A program made the translations under genes and the position numbers. Below are positions 18,595 through 31,745 of a stretch of 64,000 nucleotides of DNA, in pieces. Location of the stretch: the IMG/VR virus record IMGVR_UViG_3300033064_000964, positions 1-64,000 of that record; one strand, 5' to 3'. How positions within the stretch are numbered: the stretch's first letter is position 1; each line of letters opens with the position of its first letter. Source of the stretch: a virus. The notes below the pieces were generated by a model. It was not told where the DNA came from. It saw only the letters and a list, made by a program, of their open reading frames with translations, and searched no databases.

Positions 18595-18893
18595 GTCGAT
18601 TCAACGTGGCTGCGGACAAGGCCGGAGAGGTCTGTGAACGCTTCGGCTGGGACCGTGGCTGGTCGGCCGCTGGGTGCTACCTGCACCTGGAGGTCAGCGA
18701 GTTCATCGAGGCCCTGCGGGGCAAGGGTGACTCGACCCCTCTGGCAGAGGCAGCCGACGTGCTGTTCGTGCTGCTCTCCACGTGCAAGGCCAACGGCCTC
18801 GACGTGGGTGATGTGGTCGCAGCCCTGGACGCCCGCTGCGCTCGGCTCCTGTCCGGGGCCGAGGACGACAAGTACCGCAAGGCCCCGGAATGA
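18591..18893 (+). CDS. MazG-like nucleotide pyrophosphohydrolase
   Basis: 100 residues. A helix with E-x2-E (LHLEVSEFIEALRG) is followed by E-x2-D (LAEAADVLFVLLST), the paired metal-binding motifs of the all-alpha MazG/dUTPase-type NTP pyrophosphohydrolases. The family hydrolyses (d)NTPs to the monophosphate and pyrophosphate. It overlaps both neighbours and directly precedes dCTP deaminase, fitting a phage nucleotide-pool module. Confidence 0.75.
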   Translation: MSRFNVAADKAGEVCERFGWDRGWSAAGCYLHLEVSEFIEALRGKGDSTPLAEAADVLFVLLSTCKANGLDVGDVVAALDARCARLLSGAEDDKYRKAPE

Positions 18894-19591
18894 TCTCGCG
18901 GGCAGCCATCAAGCACCTGATGAAGGTGGGGCTCATCAAGGTGACGCCCGACCCCGTGAAGATCGGGCCGAACTCCATTGACCTGCGGCTCGGGGACACC
19001 CTCCGCATCTACCACAGCACCGAGAACAGGGTCCCCATCACGGACCCCTACCGCGAGGTGCGCTACTGGGCCATCGACCCGAAGAATCCCCCACCCCTGC
19101 TCGACGTGCCGCTGCGGAAGGACGGTCGGTGGCTGCTCATCCCCGGCCAGTTCTACTTGGGCTGCACCGTGGAAGAGACCTACTGCCGTGGGGTCGTCCC
19201 GCACCTTGATGGTCGCTCGACCTGCGGGCGGCTCTCCATCGAGGCCCACAAGACCGCAGGGGTCGGGGACAACGGCTTCCGGGGCCGGTGGACGTTGGAG
19301 ATCGAGGTGACAGAGCCGGTGCTGGTGACGCCGGGTGACCGGCTGTTCCAGATCTACTTCACCCCCGCGTGGGGTGAGGGGCTGGCCTACCTCATCCAGT
19401 CGAGGTTCGACGGCACCGCTGCGTGGTTGAACAAGGACGACCCGAACTACGTGGACATCGGCCCGATGATGCCGGATGGGGAACCCACCGGGACGGCCCC
19501 GCTGCTGGAGCTGGACGACCTCTACGGGGACGACAGCGGGCACCACTACCAGGGCTCCGAGGTCATCCGGGGGCCATCTCCGCTCGACTAG
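18890..19591 (+). CDS. dcd: dCTP deaminase family enzyme
   Basis: 233 residues, somewhat longer than the usual ~190. The core HLDGRSTCGRLSIEAHKTAG and the strand RGRWTLEIEV match the dCTP deaminase/dUTPase fold, with the catalytic Glu in TLEIEV. The usual DPGF turn reads DNGF. The N-terminus IGPNSIDLRLGD is the family signature. Such enzymes deaminate dCTP to dUTP, feeding thymidylate synthesis (ThyX at 25054). The gene is convergent with the viperin-like gene; only 2 bp separate the stops. The Asp-rich C-terminal ~40 residues are extra. Confidence 0.85.
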   Translation: MISRAAIKHLMKVGLIKVTPDPVKIGPNSIDLRLGDTLRIYHSTENRVPITDPYREVRYWAIDPKNPPPLLDVPLRKDGRWLLIPGQFYLGCTVEETYCRGVVPHLDGRSTCGRLSIEAHKTAGVGDNGFRGRWTLEIEVTEPVLVTPGDRLFQIYFTPAWGEGLAYLIQSRFDGTAAWLNKDDPNYVDIGPMMPDGEPTGTAPLLELDDLYGDDSGHHYQGSEVIRGPSPLD

Positions 19592-19593
19592 GG

Positions 19594-20424
19594 CTACCAG
19601 TCGTACTTGCCGCCCCGGCGGTCGAATCGCTCCTGTCGGAAGTCCACCGACGCCCAGGCCTCCTCGACGCCGACATCAAGGATGGACGGGCCGTAGACGT
19701 GCCCTGCTGGCCCACCGGAGTAGAAGCGGCCCAGCGGGTCGATGAGGGCATAGGAGTAGGACATCAGCTCGTTGGTCTCTGCGACCGGGGCGAGGCCGAT
19801 GGAGGCCAGGTCCGTGTGCCGTGCGACCCACGATGCGAACTGCTCGTCGGTGATGAGCAGATCGTCAATGCCGTCGTTCTGCCCGGCGACCGGGAGCACC
19901 TGGAACGCCTTCCAGCGGTCAGGGCGGAACACCCGGATGAAGTCGCTGAAGTCCTCCTGCCAGTTGAAGGCCGTGATGACGCTGTTGAGCTTCACCTTGA
20001 CCCCGGCCTTGCGGCACTTGGCAGCCAGCTTGACCATGCGTTCGACGTGGCCCCACTCGCCTCGACCCAGGCGGACTTCGACCTGTTCGTTGAGCGAGTC
20101 CAGTGAGAGGCCGACCCAGTCGAGCTGGTCAGCGCAGGCGTCGAGCAGGGGTTGGAGCCGGGCTCCGTTCGTGACGATGGTGGTGACCATGCCCAGCTCG
20201 TGGGAGAGCTGGACCAGATCCTTGATGTTCGGGTGGAGGGTGGGCTCCCCGCCGACGAAGGTGATCTTCTCGACCCCGGCGTCCGCAAGCTGGGCGACTA
20301 CCTGCTCGGTCTGGTCGTTGGAGAGTCGCCCGTCCACGTCCTTGAACGTGGAGTAGCAGAAGCGGCACCGGAGGTTGCACTCCTTCAACAGGAAGAAGTT
20401 CACGGCTGGCGGGAGGGTGCTCAC
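19594..20424 (-). CDS. Viperin-like radical SAM enzyme
   Basis: 276 residues, GTG start overlapping the upstream stop. The radical SAM cluster motif CNLRCRFC is at residues 16-23 and GGEP at 58-61. Beyond the general fold it carries marks I know from viperin (RSAD2 and prokaryotic pVips). These are LNSVITAFNWQED (147-158), RPDRWKAFQVL (167-177), ITDEQFASWVARH, SILDVGVEEA (247-256) and a C-terminus ending RGGKYDW. Viperins convert CTP, GTP or UTP to 3'-deoxy-3',4'-didehydro nucleotides that terminate RNA chains. Last gene of a five-gene overlapping operon driven by the GGGCTCAGA-type promoter at 21549. Another radical SAM specificity is possible but the C-terminal marks argue for viperin. Confidence 0.85.
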   Translation of the reverse strand: MSTLPPAVNFFLLKECNLRCRFCYSTFKDVDGRLSNDQTEQVVAQLADAGVEKITFVGGEPTLHPNIKDLVQLSHELGMVTTIVTNGARLQPLLDACADQLDWVGLSLDSLNEQVEVRLGRGEWGHVERMVKLAAKCRKAGVKVKLNSVITAFNWQEDFSDFIRVFRPDRWKAFQVLPVAGQNDGIDDLLITDEQFASWVARHTDLASIGLAPVAETNELMSYSYALIDPLGRFYSGGPAGHVYGPSILDVGVEEAWASVDFRQERFDRRGGKYDW

Positions 20425-20660
20425 TTCGCGGTCACCTTGACCAGCGGGGTTCCGGGGTTGAGTGCCGTGTCCTCCTCGTCACCTAGGATGCAGTGGGTGG
20501 CGTCCACGCTGATGTCCCAGAAGTCGGTGCTCTTGTAGACCTTGCCCCGACCGATCCTGACCTGACCCTCGTTGGCGGCCAGGATGCTCATGTCGTGCTT
20601 CTCGCACAGGGCCATCAGGTCCCGGGCGAACGCTTCATAGTCGGTCAGGACGCGGGCCAT
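20421..20660 (-). CDS. Small phage protein upstream of viperin-like gene
   Basis: 79 residues. The start ATG 20660 overlaps the upstream stop, with GGAG 8 bases before it. Its stop overlaps the GTG of the viperin-like gene, so the two are translationally coupled. Sequence MARVLTDYEAFARDLMALC... with a beta-rich C-terminus; no family recognised. Confidence 0.6.
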   Translation of the reverse strand: MARVLTDYEAFARDLMALCEKHDMSILAANEGQVRIGRGKVYKSTDFWDISVDATHCILGDEEDTALNPGTPLVKVTAK

Positions 20661-20932
20661 CAGGAGCACTCCGTCAGGGACTCAGGGTGGACAAGCCACC
20701 ACTCGCCGTGGCGGTCGAGGCAGCAGGCGTAGCCATGGGTCTTGGTGAAGCCGAACAGGACCATGCGGACGGTGGCACCACGGGGGAACGCCGACTCGAT
20801 GCCGCCGTTCGTGCCGTTGACCACCATGCCGGGGGTCAGGTCGCAGCCGGTCGCCGCGTCCACGAGGACGTGGGGACAGTTCTCAGCCTTGCGGCGGGCG
20901 TCGAAGCCGAAGTCCATGGGCAGGTTGATCAT
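20660..20932 (-). CDS. Small phage protein, viperin operon
   Basis: 90 residues. Begins MINLPMDFGFDARRKAENCPHV and has GTNGGIESAFPRGATVRMVLFG and YACCLDRHGEWWLVHPESL segments, suggesting a small beta-barrel. Overlaps both neighbours by ATGA junctions. Function unknown. Confidence 0.6.
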   Translation of the reverse strand: MINLPMDFGFDARRKAENCPHVLVDAATGCDLTPGMVVNGTNGGIESAFPRGATVRMVLFGFTKTHGYACCLDRHGEWWLVHPESLTECS

Positions 20933-21123
20933 CGGGCCTTCCAGAAGTAGGTGCGGCGGGTCAGACCAGCGGGCCAGCCGTCGCCGTCGTGCAGCTTGTT
21001 GCCGGTCATGCTCGCCCAGTCGAACCCCCGGTGGTAGTCCTCGGGCTTGCCACCCTCGTAGGCGGCTCTGGCCTGGGCGGCTTCGTCACCGGGGCCGATG
21101 AGGATGGGGCCTTCCGAGATCAG
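20929..21123 (-). CDS. Small phage protein with probable CTG start
   Basis: About 64 residues, reading LISEGPILIGPGDEAAQ then YHRGFDWASMTGNKLHDGDGW and ending TYFWKAR. The frame has no ATG or GTG before an internal Met. GGGGAGG lies 8 bases before the CTG at 21123, which is 5 bases after the upstream stop, so CTG is the likely start. Its stop overlaps the next start. Recognisable coding composition but no known family. Confidence 0.55.
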   Translation of the reverse strand: MISEGPILIGPGDEAAQARAAYEGGKPEDYHRGFDWASMTGNKLHDGDGWPAGLTRRTYFWKAR

Positions 21124-21127
21124 GGGA

Positions 21128-21535
21128 TCAGCCTCCCCACATCAGGAGCAGGCGGGCACCGGGCACCGGCTTGGGGAGGGGGGCCACGTCGCAGGAGGTG
21201 AAGGGCACCGGCTTCATGGGCTCCCAGCCCTCGGGCAGCACGGTCGCCAGCACGCGGTCGATGACGTACTGCGGCTGGTTGCTGATGGCGAAGTCCCGCT
21301 GACCCTGCTCGACGTGCCACTTCATTCGGCGAAGTCGGGCCTCGACTGCCGCCTTGACCACTTCGGAGGTGTCGTCCATCAGAACGACCACGCTCGTCGG
21401 CAGGTTCGTGGGCCAGTGGGCGGACCAGTCCGCGTTGGCAGCGAGGGCCGCAGCAGCCTTGGTCAGCATTTCGTCGAGGTTGATGAAGGCCCACTCGGGG
21501 ATGGCCTTGATCTGCTTCTGTTCGGCTTCGTGCAT
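21128..21535 (-). CDS. Hypothetical protein, first gene of viperin operon
   Basis: 135 residues. The ATG lies 13 bases downstream of the promoter motif at 21549-21578, with CCGGAG as ribosome site, so the 5' untranslated leader is very short. Helical N-terminal half (EAEQKQIKAIPEW, LTKAAAALAANADW), then VVVLMDDTSEVVKAAVEARL. No family recognised. First of five overlapping genes ending with the viperin-like enzyme. Confidence 0.6.
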   Translation of the reverse strand: MHEAEQKQIKAIPEWAFINLDEMLTKAAAALAANADWSAHWPTNLPTSVVVLMDDTSEVVKAAVEARLRRMKWHVEQGQRDFAISNQPQYVIDRVLATVLPEGWEPMKPVPFTSCDVAPLPKPVPGARLLLMWGG

Positions 21536-21548
21536 GGTGTCTCCGGGG

Positions 21549-21578
21549 CTACTACGGGGTGGGTCGGGAGTCTGAGCC
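21549..21578 (-). promoter_or_regulatory. GGCTCAGA-N14-CGTAGTA promoter (viperin operon)
   Basis: On the minus strand GGCTCAGA (21578-21571), 14 bases, then CGTAGTAG (21556-21549). Six copies of this two-block motif with fixed spacing occur in the window, each before an accessory transcription unit. It is not a sigma70 consensus. Squeezed into the 44-bp gap between two minus-strand genes. Confidence 0.65.
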
Positions 21579-21579
21579 G

Positions 21580-22161
21580 CTACCAGCGACGGTAGCTGCT
21601 GCGGTTCCCGCTGTAGCCGCCCCGGCTGGGCCGCTGGTAGCTCTGGTTGCTGCGGGTCAGATCGTCTGTCGTCTTCCAGCAGAGGTCGGCACAGACATCG
21701 TTGCCGCCGGTCTTGATGCCCGTGTGCTTGTTGGTGCGGACCTTGCTCACGAACTTCGGGGCTCCGCAGTGGCAGACCGGGACGCCCTTCACGGTCGCCC
21801 AGCAGTCCCGCATCCGCAGGATGACCCGCTCGGTGATGGCGTCGATGATGCCCGTGCGGTTGACCCGCTTCTCAGCGGAGGCGATGCCTCGCTCACGACC
21901 ATCGCGGGCGGCGTAGACCGCGCAGACCCGGATGGCGTCCTTGGCGACCGCTCGGGTCATGTCGCCTTCGATGGTCGAGTAGACCAGCACCCGGATCTTG
22001 CCGTCCGTGTTCGGGACCTCTCGGGCGAACACCCGTTCCTTGGTCCCCTCGATGCGGACTTCCAGGAAGAGCGCCCTTGCGAACAGGGCCAGCAGTTCGG
22101 TCGCCAGCGTGCGACGGTGGTCTCGGTCGCGGGGGTCGTACTTGCTCGTCGGGTTGGTCAT
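21580..22161 (-). CDS. Conserved-looking zinc-ribbon phage protein
   Basis: 193 residues from ATG 22161, chosen because GGGAG lies 8 bases upstream; the longer frame to 22329 crosses the divergent promoter. The first ~110 residues are alpha/beta (RRTLATELLALFARALFLEV, REVPNTDGKIRVLVYST). The C-terminus has CHCG...VCADLC, a four-Cys zinc ribbon, then a Ser/Arg/Gly/Tyr-rich tail (RGGYSGNRSSYRRW) like nucleic-acid binding tails. Possibly a DNA- or RNA-binding protein. Confidence 0.65.
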   Translation of the reverse strand: MTNPTSKYDPRDRDHRRTLATELLALFARALFLEVRIEGTKERVFAREVPNTDGKIRVLVYSTIEGDMTRAVAKDAIRVCAVYAARDGRERGIASAEKRVNRTGIIDAITERVILRMRDCWATVKGVPVCHCGAPKFVSKVRTNKHTGIKTGGNDVCADLCWKTTDDLTRSNQSYQRPSRGGYSGNRSSYRRW

Positions 22162-22190: not shown

Positions 22191-22220
22191 CACTACTGAC
22201 GGGGTTATGTTTCTGAGCCC
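22191..22220 (-). promoter_or_regulatory. GGGCTCAGA-N14-AGTAGT promoter, minus copy of divergent pair
   Basis: GGGCTCAGA (22220-22212), 14 bases, AGTAGTG (22197-22191) on the minus strand, 30 bp before the start at 22161. Together with the plus-strand copy at 22250 it forms a near-palindromic divergent promoter region of about 90 bp. Confidence 0.65.
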
Positions 22221-22249: not shown

Positions 22250-22279
22250 GGGCTCAGAACGCAGGGCACGTCAGTAGTA
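22250..22279 (+). promoter_or_regulatory. GGGCTCAGA-N14-AGTAGTA promoter, plus copy of divergent pair
   Basis: GGGCTCAGA (22250-22258), 14 bases, AGTAGTA (22273-22279), 20 bp before the start at 22299. The only plus-strand member of the six-site class, and the mirror image of the site at 22191. Confidence 0.65.
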
Positions 22280-22298: not shown

Positions 22299-22493
22299 AT
22301 GGACTGCCGAACACGAATCCAGATCCCACGCACCCGTGAGGAGACCCTTCAGCTCTTCCTCGACGCGGACGAGATGCGGGATGAGGCCAACGACTGGCAC
22401 CCGGACGTGGACGGCCTCCACGACGACGCGGACACCTTGACGGCGATGGCCCACACGGTCATGGCGGCGAACAAGTGGGAGTACCCGGCCTGA
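22299..22493 (+). CDS. Small acidic phage protein
   Basis: 64 residues, CGGAG 7 bases upstream. Acidic and helical (FLDADEMRDEAND, DVDGLHDDADTL). First gene after the divergent promoter; its stop overlaps the next ATG, so it is co-translated with the PP-loop gene. Confidence 0.6.
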   Translation: MDCRTRIQIPRTREETLQLFLDADEMRDEANDWHPDVDGLHDDADTLTAMAHTVMAANKWEYPA

Positions 22494-23881
22494 TGGCACG
22501 ACGACCCCGAACGCTGGTGATCTTGAGCTACGGCCTTGGCTGGGACAGCACCGCCATCCTGGTCCGCTGGCTGCTCGATCCATCCAGCCGAGACTTCGAC
22601 CTCCGCGATCTCATCGTCGTCACGGCGATGACCGGGGACGAGTTCAAGTCGATGGGCGTCCTGGTCGAGAAGTACATCCTCCCCCTGATGCGAGCCCACG
22701 GAGTCCGCTTCGTTCAGGTAGCTCGCGGCGGGGCCAGCACCCACGACGGCGTGACCATCCTCGACGACTCCCGCTCCCCCACGAAGGTTCACCTCGACGG
22801 GGTCTACAAGCTCTCCGACGAGATGCTTGAGTCCGCCACCGTCCCGCAGTTCGGTGGTGCCCGGCTCTGCTCGCAGAAGCAGAAAGGCGTCCCCCTCGAC
22901 TTCATCATCGACAAGCTGACGCAGGGCCGACCGTTCCGACACGTCATGGGCTTCAACGCCGACGAGTTGAACCGGGTCGCCCGCGACGCCAGCTACTCCA
23001 CCGTCACCCGCAAGTCCGAGTACCCGCTGGTCACCTGGGGCTGGGGTCGGGCGAAGCTCTCTGAGTACGTCCGGGACTCCCTCGGGGTCGAGTGGGAGAA
23101 GAGCTGCTGCACCTTCTGTCCGTTCGCTGGCTCCTGCAAGGCAGAGAAGATGGAGGCCCTGACCTCTCGGTACACCGCCGAGCCCGAAGCCGCCGTGCTG
23201 GCCCTGACCATCGAGCGTCGGTCCCTGGCGATGAACGTCCGGCAGCCCCTCTTCGCCAAGACATCCCTGTTCGACGTGCTGGAGCAGACCGACCCCGCGC
23301 TGGTCGCCCTGTTCGAGGCCGACTGGAACTCCGCTCCCGACTGGAGCCTCTACCGTGTCCGCCGCAGCTTCCGTGGAGTCGGGCAGGCCGTTCGCAGCCT
23401 GGAGTGCATCAAGTGGGGGTCGAAGGCCCGGATGCTGGCGGAACTGGCGACCCACGGCGAAGTCGAGTGGACCCACGGTTCGCCACGGGTGCTCGTCCAG
23501 CGCAAGGTCGAGGACGTGTTCCCGGTCAACGAGGACATGTACGTCGTCGCCCCGGCTGGTGTGACCCCGAAGACCAACGCGATGTTCGACGCCTACTGGG
23601 TCCGCACCGGAGAGGTCGAGGCAGCCCGAGCCGCAGGGGCCGATGAGCCTTGCCCGAAGGCACGGGCGATGGGCTTCGTGCTCCGGTACGTCGTGACCCA
23701 CGCGGCCAACACCTTCACCAAGGGCGATGTCCAGCGAGCCGCAGGAGCCTCCGGGGTCTTCACGGCAGAGGCAGGGGACGCCTTCAATGAGCTGAAGGCC
23801 GAGGGCCGGTTCGGCAAGGTCGGCAAGCGCATGACTCTGGCCCCCGCCGCCTGGGGCTCAGTCACCTCCCCATCCCCGTAG
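22493..23881 (+). CDS. PP-loop ATPase of the PAPS reductase family
   Basis: 462 residues. The pyrophosphate-binding loop reads SYGLGWDSTA (about residues 10-19). A cluster CCTFCPFAGSC (about 203-213) supplies metal-binding cysteines, as in the DndC/CysH-like branch of adenine nucleotide alpha hydrolases. The C-terminal ~70 residues (FVLRYVVTHAANTFTKGDVQRA, LKAEGRFGKVG) resemble a fused winged helix. Roles known in the family include sulfate activation, tRNA or DNA thiolation and base modification; which one applies is not visible. Co-transcribed with the small gene upstream. Confidence 0.8.
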   Translation: MARRPRTLVILSYGLGWDSTAILVRWLLDPSSRDFDLRDLIVVTAMTGDEFKSMGVLVEKYILPLMRAHGVRFVQVARGGASTHDGVTILDDSRSPTKVHLDGVYKLSDEMLESATVPQFGGARLCSQKQKGVPLDFIIDKLTQGRPFRHVMGFNADELNRVARDASYSTVTRKSEYPLVTWGWGRAKLSEYVRDSLGVEWEKSCCTFCPFAGSCKAEKMEALTSRYTAEPEAAVLALTIERRSLAMNVRQPLFAKTSLFDVLEQTDPALVALFEADWNSAPDWSLYRVRRSFRGVGQAVRSLECIKWGSKARMLAELATHGEVEWTHGSPRVLVQRKVEDVFPVNEDMYVVAPAGVTPKTNAMFDAYWVRTGEVEAARAAGADEPCPKARAMGFVLRYVVTHAANTFTKGDVQRAAGASGVFTAEAGDAFNELKAEGRFGKVGKRMTLAPAAWGSVTSPSP

Positions 23882-30172: not shown

Positions 30173-30744
30173 TTGAAGCGGAGGTCACCTGTCAGTGCGT
30201 TCAGATCGCCCTGCCCGACCTGCGGTTGTCCATGGTGAACGGGCAGGTCGTCTACTTGGATGAAGCCGATGCCAAGGCGTCGGTGGACCTTCAACGGGCG
30301 TGGAGGGCAAAGGCCGTCATCGTCAAGTACATCCAGCGATTCAGAGAGCGGAGAGCCGCTCGGCTGGCCCTTCCCGCAGCCCCGGCTGCCTCGATGGTGG
30401 GATTCCTGCCGGAGATGGGCCAACCGGAGCAGACCGTGGTGGTCGATGTCGATGCGATTGCGGCACGGGTCGCAGAGCTGCTGGAGCCCCGCCTTGTCGC
30501 CAGCATCACGGCCTCTGTGGTGGCCGCTCTGCGCTCCGAAGGCCCCGTGGTGACCGTTGGTGCGCCTGTAGCGTCCGCCCCTCCACAGACGGCCTGGGCG
30601 GATGCTCCGGTGTTCATCCCGTCGAGGATCGGCAACGAGCTGGAGGCTAACCTTGAACTCCAGGCGACCACGGCCACTGAGGGGGTAGTGTCTGACGCGG
30701 CTGCTGCCTTGCGGGCGGCCCGGAAGAAGCAGGAGCCGACATGA
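30169..30744 (+). CDS. Hypothetical phage protein, structural cluster
   Basis: 191 residues. N-terminal ~50 residues are compact (LPDLRLSMVNGQVVYLDEADAKAS). The rest is Ala/Pro/Val-rich with a helical segment VDAIAARVAELLEPRLVASI and a basic C-terminus, probably largely extended. Overlaps the next ATG. Function unknown. Confidence 0.5.
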   Translation: MIEAEVTCQCVQIALPDLRLSMVNGQVVYLDEADAKASVDLQRAWRAKAVIVKYIQRFRERRAARLALPAAPAASMVGFLPEMGQPEQTVVVDVDAIAARVAELLEPRLVASITASVVAALRSEGPVVTVGAPVASAPPQTAWADAPVFIPSRIGNELEANLELQATTATEGVVSDAAAALRAARKKQEPT

Positions 30745-31745
30745 GCAAGAAAAAGACCCTCGGGGTCGGGCTGGACATCGGGACGATGAACATCGTCTCC
30801 GCTCGCAGCGTCGGTGGCAGCATCGAGACGAAGCGGATGCGGGACGCCTTCATGTCCATGCCCCCGAACAAGACCCGGATGCTCAAGCTCTCGCAGACCA
30901 GCTTCGTCGAGCGTGAACATGACGTGCTCCTCCTGGGCGACGCAGCGATGGAGATGGCCAACGTATTCGGCGGCAACCCCCGCCGTCCCCTGGCCGGTGG
31001 GCTCATCGCTGCCGGGGAGTCCGATGCCCTGAGCGTGTTGAAGCTCCTGATCAAGAACGTGCTCGGGGAGCCGCAGATCGAGAACGAGGTCTGCTACTTC
31101 AGCGTCCCGGCCCCACCCCTCGACCAGCCCGGCAAGGACATCATCTACCACCGTGGGGTCTTCGAGCGCATCGTCGAGGAGTGCGGGTTCGACCCCTTCC
31201 CCGCCAACGAGGCGATGGCCATCATCTTCTCCGAGTGCGCTGCCGAGGGCTTCAGCGGTCTGTCCTTCAGCTTCGGCTCCGGGATGACCAACGTCGCGCT
31301 CGCGCTGAACACGACCGAGGTGCTGTCCTTCTCCGTCCAGCGAGGCGGTGACTGGATCGATGAGCACGCAGCTCAGGCGGTGGGGATGACCCAGGCTCAG
31401 ATGTGCGCCCTCAAGGAGGGTGGCATCGACCTGATGACCCACGCGACGCAGCCGGAGGAGGCGGTCGCCCTGTACTACAAGGCGATGATCGACTTCGCCC
31501 TGGACCAGGTGGCGGCCCACTTCGTCGCGCAGTCCGGCCAGTTCACCTTCCCCAAGCCCATCCCCATCATCGTGTCCGGTGGGACGAGCATGGCGGGCGG
31601 GTTCCTCGATTTCTTCAACAACGTCTGGCGCAAGAAGAAGCGGAAGTTCCCCATCGAGGTCAGCGAGATCCGCTCGGCCAAGGACCCGCTCAACGCGGTG
31701 GCGTTCGGGATGCTCATCCAGGCGATGCAGGAGTACGAGGAGTGA
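30741..31745 (+). CDS. Actin/Hsp70-fold ATPase
   Basis: 334 residues. Phosphate-1 loop GLDIGTMNI (about residues 9-17), phosphate-2 loop FSFGSGMTNVAL (about 177-188) and adenosine motif IIVSGGTSMAGGF (about 275-287) define the actin/Hsp70/ParM/MreB superfamily. Length is near that of MreB/ParM. It lies inside a virion-gene operon rather than beside a centromere-like repeat. Roles could be DNA or capsid positioning, plasmid-like segregation, or chaperone-like assembly. Starts and ends in 4-base overlaps. Confidence 0.85.
   Translation: MSKKKTLGVGLDIGTMNIVSARSVGGSIETKRMRDAFMSMPPNKTRMLKLSQTSFVEREHDVLLLGDAAMEMANVFGGNPRRPLAGGLIAAGESDALSVLKLLIKNVLGEPQIENEVCYFSVPAPPLDQPGKDIIYHRGVFERIVEECGFDPFPANEAMAIIFSECAAEGFSGLSFSFGSGMTNVALALNTTEVLSFSVQRGGDWIDEHAAQAVGMTQAQMCALKEGGIDLMTHATQPEEAVALYYKAMIDFALDQVAAHFVAQSGQFTFPKPIPIIVSGGTSMAGGFLDFFNNVWRKKKRKFPIEVSEIRSAKDPLNAVAFGMLIQAMQEYEE

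Follow-up and report, generated by a model that had tools for sequence, protein, structure and literature searches.

A predicted viperin gene at the end of a five-gene operon in a large uncultivated tailed phage

The DNA analysed here (the window) comprises bases 1–64,000 of the 132,823-bp IMG/VR virus record IMGVR_UViG_3300033064_000964 and encodes a tail sheath protein alongside other large ORFs belonging to a sizeable tailed phage; no tRNA was found in it. When two stretches of the window were compared by blastn with the cultured collection, the sole match was one 5% fragment, belonging to an uncultured-phage record. The carrier of the operon described below is a large uncultivated tailed phage.

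Five genes follow one another on the minus strand of the window. The first (21535–21128) encodes 135 aa, the second (21123–20929) 64 aa, the third (20932–20660) 90 aa and the fourth (20660–20421) 79 aa; the fifth (20424–19594), which has a GTG start and is joined to the fourth by a GTGA overlap, encodes a 276-aa predicted viperin, i.e., a SAM-dependent nucleotide dehydratase. Upstream lies a minus-strand gene for a 193-aa protein (21580–22161), which has its own promoter-like motif at 22219–22190 and is outside the five-gene unit, whereas the neighbour on the viperin side is a convergent plus-strand gene (18890–19591) resembling dCTP deaminases (Pfam DCD, 3.5e-28). The junctions from the first to the fifth gene measure +4, −4, −1 and −4 nt. 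All the ORFs and junctions described in an earlier, sequence-only reading of this DNA are present, with two amendments: no ATG, GTG or TTG yields a 64-aa product, so that the second gene must start with the CTG at 21123, behind GGGGAGG, and the junction at 20660 is TGATG, with an overlap of 1 nt, not the 4 nt of an ATGA. The codon-position GC of the second gene (0.65/0.55/0.86) supports its being coding. From the tight coupling it had further been deduced that the small proteins act together with the viperin, an argument that is weakened since junctions of ≤4 nt are found in 19 of 44 other same-strand gene pairs of this phage (in a gene list trimmed by hand); tight junctions in the viperin operon are no more frequent than in the background of the phage.

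Just upstream of the first gene, at 21578–21549 on the minus strand, lies the promoter-like motif GGCTCAGA-N15-GTAGTAG, the whole 30-nt site being GGCTCAGACTCCCGACCCACCCCGTAGTAG. The promoter motif ascribed to the five genes in the sequence-only reading is real, and the motif is longer than first described; CCGTAGTAG alone was discarded as a promoter and the longer motif used instead, three of its five matches in the window being Tyr-Tyr-Gly codons of plus-strand genes. GGCTCA-N18-TAGT occurs at 11 sites in the 132.8-kb record, as compared with ~0.05 expected from 20 first-order simulations, and these sites in general shortly precede a start codon; they are found at 22251(+), 23855(+), 46407(−), 45426(−), 43032(−), 22219(−) and 21578(−) in the window and at record positions 123180(−), 123789(−), 123861(+) and 124047(+). 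With its fixed spacing, the motif precedes non-structural genes of this phage and of its relatives L093 and L097–L099, and it bears no resemblance to a sigma-70 promoter; the promoter-like stretch before the first gene is identical in L097.

As judged by this motif, the operon has a promoter before its first gene and none inside, as expected of a single unit, and a sigma-70 promoter scan of the region found none. Transcription of the five genes from one promoter is the simplest reading because the best internal match scores only 10/15, as compared with 15/15 before the first gene, and the upstream gene has its own copy of the motif. The five genes plausibly constitute one transcription unit driven by one phage promoter, and would presumably be early genes.

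The product of the last gene scores 267 bits against NCBIfam NF038283 (a curated equivalog having a cut-off of 180) and 261 bits against PADLOC pVip, and solved viperins align along the full 276 aa, to the last residue, with E about 1e-45. The CxxxCxxC sequence, the radical-SAM cluster motif of viperins (PMC9642334), is intact as CNLRCRFC at residues 16–23, and the C-terminal half is conserved, with the terminal RGGKYDW matching the viperin-wide RGGxYxW end. Score, motifs and alignment bear out the earlier description of a viperin-like enzyme and, by homology, identify the last gene of the operon as a true viperin. The phage enzyme is like the pVips of NF038283 and PADLOC in its full-length homology, its CxxxCxxC and its RGGxYxW end, the nearest being Myxococcota sequences and the closest bacterial sequences being 50–54% identical to it. 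Unlike bacterial pVips, on the other hand, it is phage-encoded and belongs to an operon whose promoter motif is specific to the phage, and the bacterial viperin loci are without homologues of its small neighbours. No nucleotide kinase is fused or adjacent to this stand-alone protein, its neighbours having no kinase match, nor was one found among 55 viral viperin neighbours scanned. From the missing kinase it had been deduced that substrate supply may rely on the host or on the small proteins; however, only about 15% of bacterial viperins adjoin a nucleotide kinase (PMC11249213), so that its absence, usual also in bacteria where most viperins stand alone, needs no special explanation.

Related phages were located using the VWA-protein and the 135-aa and dCTP-deaminase-like genes as queries. 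Two of the records obtained, L093 and L094, are 100% identical over 14,839 bp and carry, in this order, a homologue of the 193-aa upstream gene, an 82-aa gene, a homologue of the 90-aa gene, a 304-aa gene and the convergent dCTP-deaminase-like gene; in L095 another member of the 304-aa family (53%) lies beside the dCTP-deaminase-like gene. This family corresponds to phrog_15934 and has no match in the record of the window. The DNA similarity between the window and L093 ends at 19591 and resumes at 20675; therefore the exchanged segment consists of the viperin and the 79-aa gene, which, from this comparison, look like an exchangeable cassette occupying a slot that in the relatives holds the unrelated 304-aa gene. 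No viperin was found in six related records, which may be incomplete, whereas the same search recovers the viperin of the window record.

Other genes of the region are conserved in relatives. The 193-aa gene is 84% identical in L097 and 49% in L093, and the dCTP-deaminase-like gene is 58–68% identical in L093–L095, all of which are without viperin; a functional link between this gene and viperin was ruled out given that the former is conserved without the latter, and sequence conservation marks it as a core neighbour, not a viperin partner. In L157 and L158 the dCTP-deaminase-like gene is present, with a different arrangement beside it. A slot with different accessory genes across related phages recalls the defence hotspots of phages and their satellites (Rousset et al. 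2022, PMC9122126), the difference being that here the phage is large and uncultivated and the alternative gene has no assigned function; that article names viperin solely among its references.

What remains to be considered is the role of the four small proteins. Pfam, NCBIfam, PHROGs and PADLOC give no meaningful match for any of them, the faint resemblance of the 79-aa protein to TusA and PaaB being put down to chance, and the structure models of the 79-aa and 90-aa products are poor (pLDDT 51 and 56, respectively), with values too low for a fold search. No tblastn match (E 0.01) was obtained at 80 bacterial or archaeal and 7 viral viperin loci, nor is any of the four present at the further viral viperin loci L100–L111, some of which are cut close to the gene. 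The 90-aa gene has a 61% identical homologue at the same place in L093/L094, within a 110,937-bp record having no viperin. The near relative L097 has a version of the 135-aa gene with 87% identity over 98 aa, but its contig stops within this gene; at L097:10255–10312 the sequence passes, at a common GCGACCG, from the 135-aa gene into a stretch resembling the 90-aa gene and then breaks off, a switch that may reflect a genuine fusion or faulty assembly. No confident homologue of the 64-aa or the 79-aa gene was found elsewhere; the latter is absent from L093–L095, and the only match of its product in the viral collection spans 30 aa of an ORF located among phage structural genes.

That the small proteins are modulators, inhibitors or partners of the viperin, as the sequence-only reading had proposed, could be argued from their sharing an operon and a promoter with it and from the fact that the 79-aa gene, linked to it by the GTGA overlap, is exchanged along with it. 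Yet tight junctions are common in this phage, none of the four genes is found at the other viperin loci tested and the 90-aa gene is conserved where viperin is missing, this being, for that gene, the finding that had been named beforehand as counting against the proposal. In a dedicated viperin operon the small genes would be expected to accompany viperin and to be lost along with it; this is not what is observed for the set, and a partnership of the small proteins with viperin is distinctly improbable, although the 79-aa protein may yet be a partner and the 135- and 64-aa genes, taken singly, could go either way. The 135-, 64- and 90-aa genes are most likely phage accessory genes placed on a common promoter. 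A better partner candidate than the small genes of the window is a recurrent ORF of ~123 aa, rich in Cys and His, related copies of which follow and overlap the viperin gene in one group of viral viperins, at L010:4572–4943, L012:10831–11202, L102:2620–2997 and L109:483–854.

Viperins over the cut-off were found in 16 further IMG/VR records and partial copies in 3 more; the viperins of L010 and L012 are identical, so the viral records are not all independent. The active-site motif is kept in the viperin of the window and in the other phage viperins. Phage genes near viperin include those for terminase, portal and head protease in L100, terminase in L007, helicase-primase in L008 and DNA polymerase, directly after viperin, in L105. 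In a tree of 64 viperins the window sequence groups with Myxococcota and an unclassified proteobacterium (95/86), L100 with a planctomycete (100/99) and L010/L102 with Poseidoniales and other euryarchaea (100/98), while L108 lies near a Thermoplasmatales archaeon (93/90) on a very long branch, being the least certain entry; 11 sequences form a virus-only clade (100/99) among Bacteroidota. Counting only the entries forced by well-supported branches, the tree requires that viperin entered viruses at least five times. By comparison, no true viperin, only weak or partial radical-SAM matches, was found in 50,697 cultured-phage records, and a comparable search of plasmids yielded 13 records with viperins. 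A single sentence on Schizotequatrovirus vibrio phages mentions two groups of viperins in their accessory genome (PMC12028318), so that there, too, viperin is reported as a phage accessory gene; these may instead be more distant radical-SAM proteins, because no true viperin was found in the cultured-phage records. No account of phage viperins as a phylogenetic group was found in the open-licence literature, and an earlier description elsewhere is possible.

The window viperin sits on a long terminal branch (0.9) of the tree. This, together with the ThyX (thymidylate synthase) and dCTP-deaminase-like genes located in the region, could be taken to mean that the enzyme now catalyses a different radical-SAM reaction, e.g., one in the nucleotide metabolism of the phage, and is linked to viperins solely by ancestry. 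Such a drift is hard to credit, given that residues invariant across viperins have been retained, as has the C-terminus, and that relatives lacking viperin also have the neighbouring nucleotide gene.

Viperin is an antiviral enzyme that is present in humans too. Viperins make ddh-nucleotides that terminate RNA chains, and T7 RNA polymerase can be inhibited by this reaction (PMC9642334); viperins from Asgard archaea shield E. coli against T7 (PMC11291487). Having an intact active site and being located at the end of an accessory operon under a phage-specific promoter, the enzyme of the window would, during infection, turn a host NTP into its 3′-deoxy-3′,4′-didehydro form; this ddh-nucleotide would chain-terminate RNA synthesis, most likely that of competing phages bringing their own RNA polymerase, and would largely spare transcription by the host polymerase. 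A phage relying on the host RNA polymerase could thus use viperin against rivals having a polymerase of their own. No T7-type or multisubunit RNA polymerase was found in the phage group, whose records are incomplete; in the T7-type search no control genome gave a match either. The relative G004 has a sigma-70-like region. The reading in which an accessory viperin, carried in an exchangeable slot, would act through ddh-nucleotides against competing phages is given a probability of roughly 50%; it is supported because of the curated equivalog match, the kept active site, the promoter motif, the slot, the viral captures and the two studies just cited. Against it, a lytic phage would gain little unless co-infection is common.

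The same enzyme could alternatively serve the takeover of the host, if production of ddh-nucleotides or a drain of NTP and SAM were to stop the transcription or metabolism of the host or to divert it. The promoter motif of the operon is common to other non-structural genes of this phage and, at L105:9974–12855, the viperin gene runs into the beginning of the phage gene for DNA polymerase; because of this overlap the two proteins are probably made together during infection, which suggests a use in infection rather than in a resident prophage. The known sensitive target, however, is a T7-type polymerase (PMC9642334), and hosts encode viperins themselves and tolerate them, so that a takeover function appears unlikely. 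Action against competing phages, our preferred reading, has also a wider version, in which viperins would be recurrent viral weapons, captured from hosts at least five times, diversified in a virus-only clade, used for phage-against-phage exclusion and aided in this lineage by the 79-aa protein as a phage-specific helper; this extension is tentative and, taken as a whole, somewhat doubtful.

Viperin is a leading example of immunity common to humans and bacteria. The presence of seemingly intact viperins in at least 17 virus records, with at least five probable captures and a virus-only clade, means that viruses themselves carry an enzyme known to stop viruses; it makes testable whether ddh-nucleotides serve phage competition or host takeover and offers a new natural set for measuring nucleotide preference.

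Two further genes of the window deserve mention. An ORF at 30741–31745 gives a strong match to the actin-like Pfam family Volactin (PF25216, 234 bits) and has a homologous ORF in L096. At 22475–23881 a 468-aa protein is encoded that is weakly related to phosphoadenosine-phosphosulfate-reductase-like phage proteins (phrog_424); its counterpart in L097 is 94% identical, and L004:16961–17611 encodes another phrog_424 protein.
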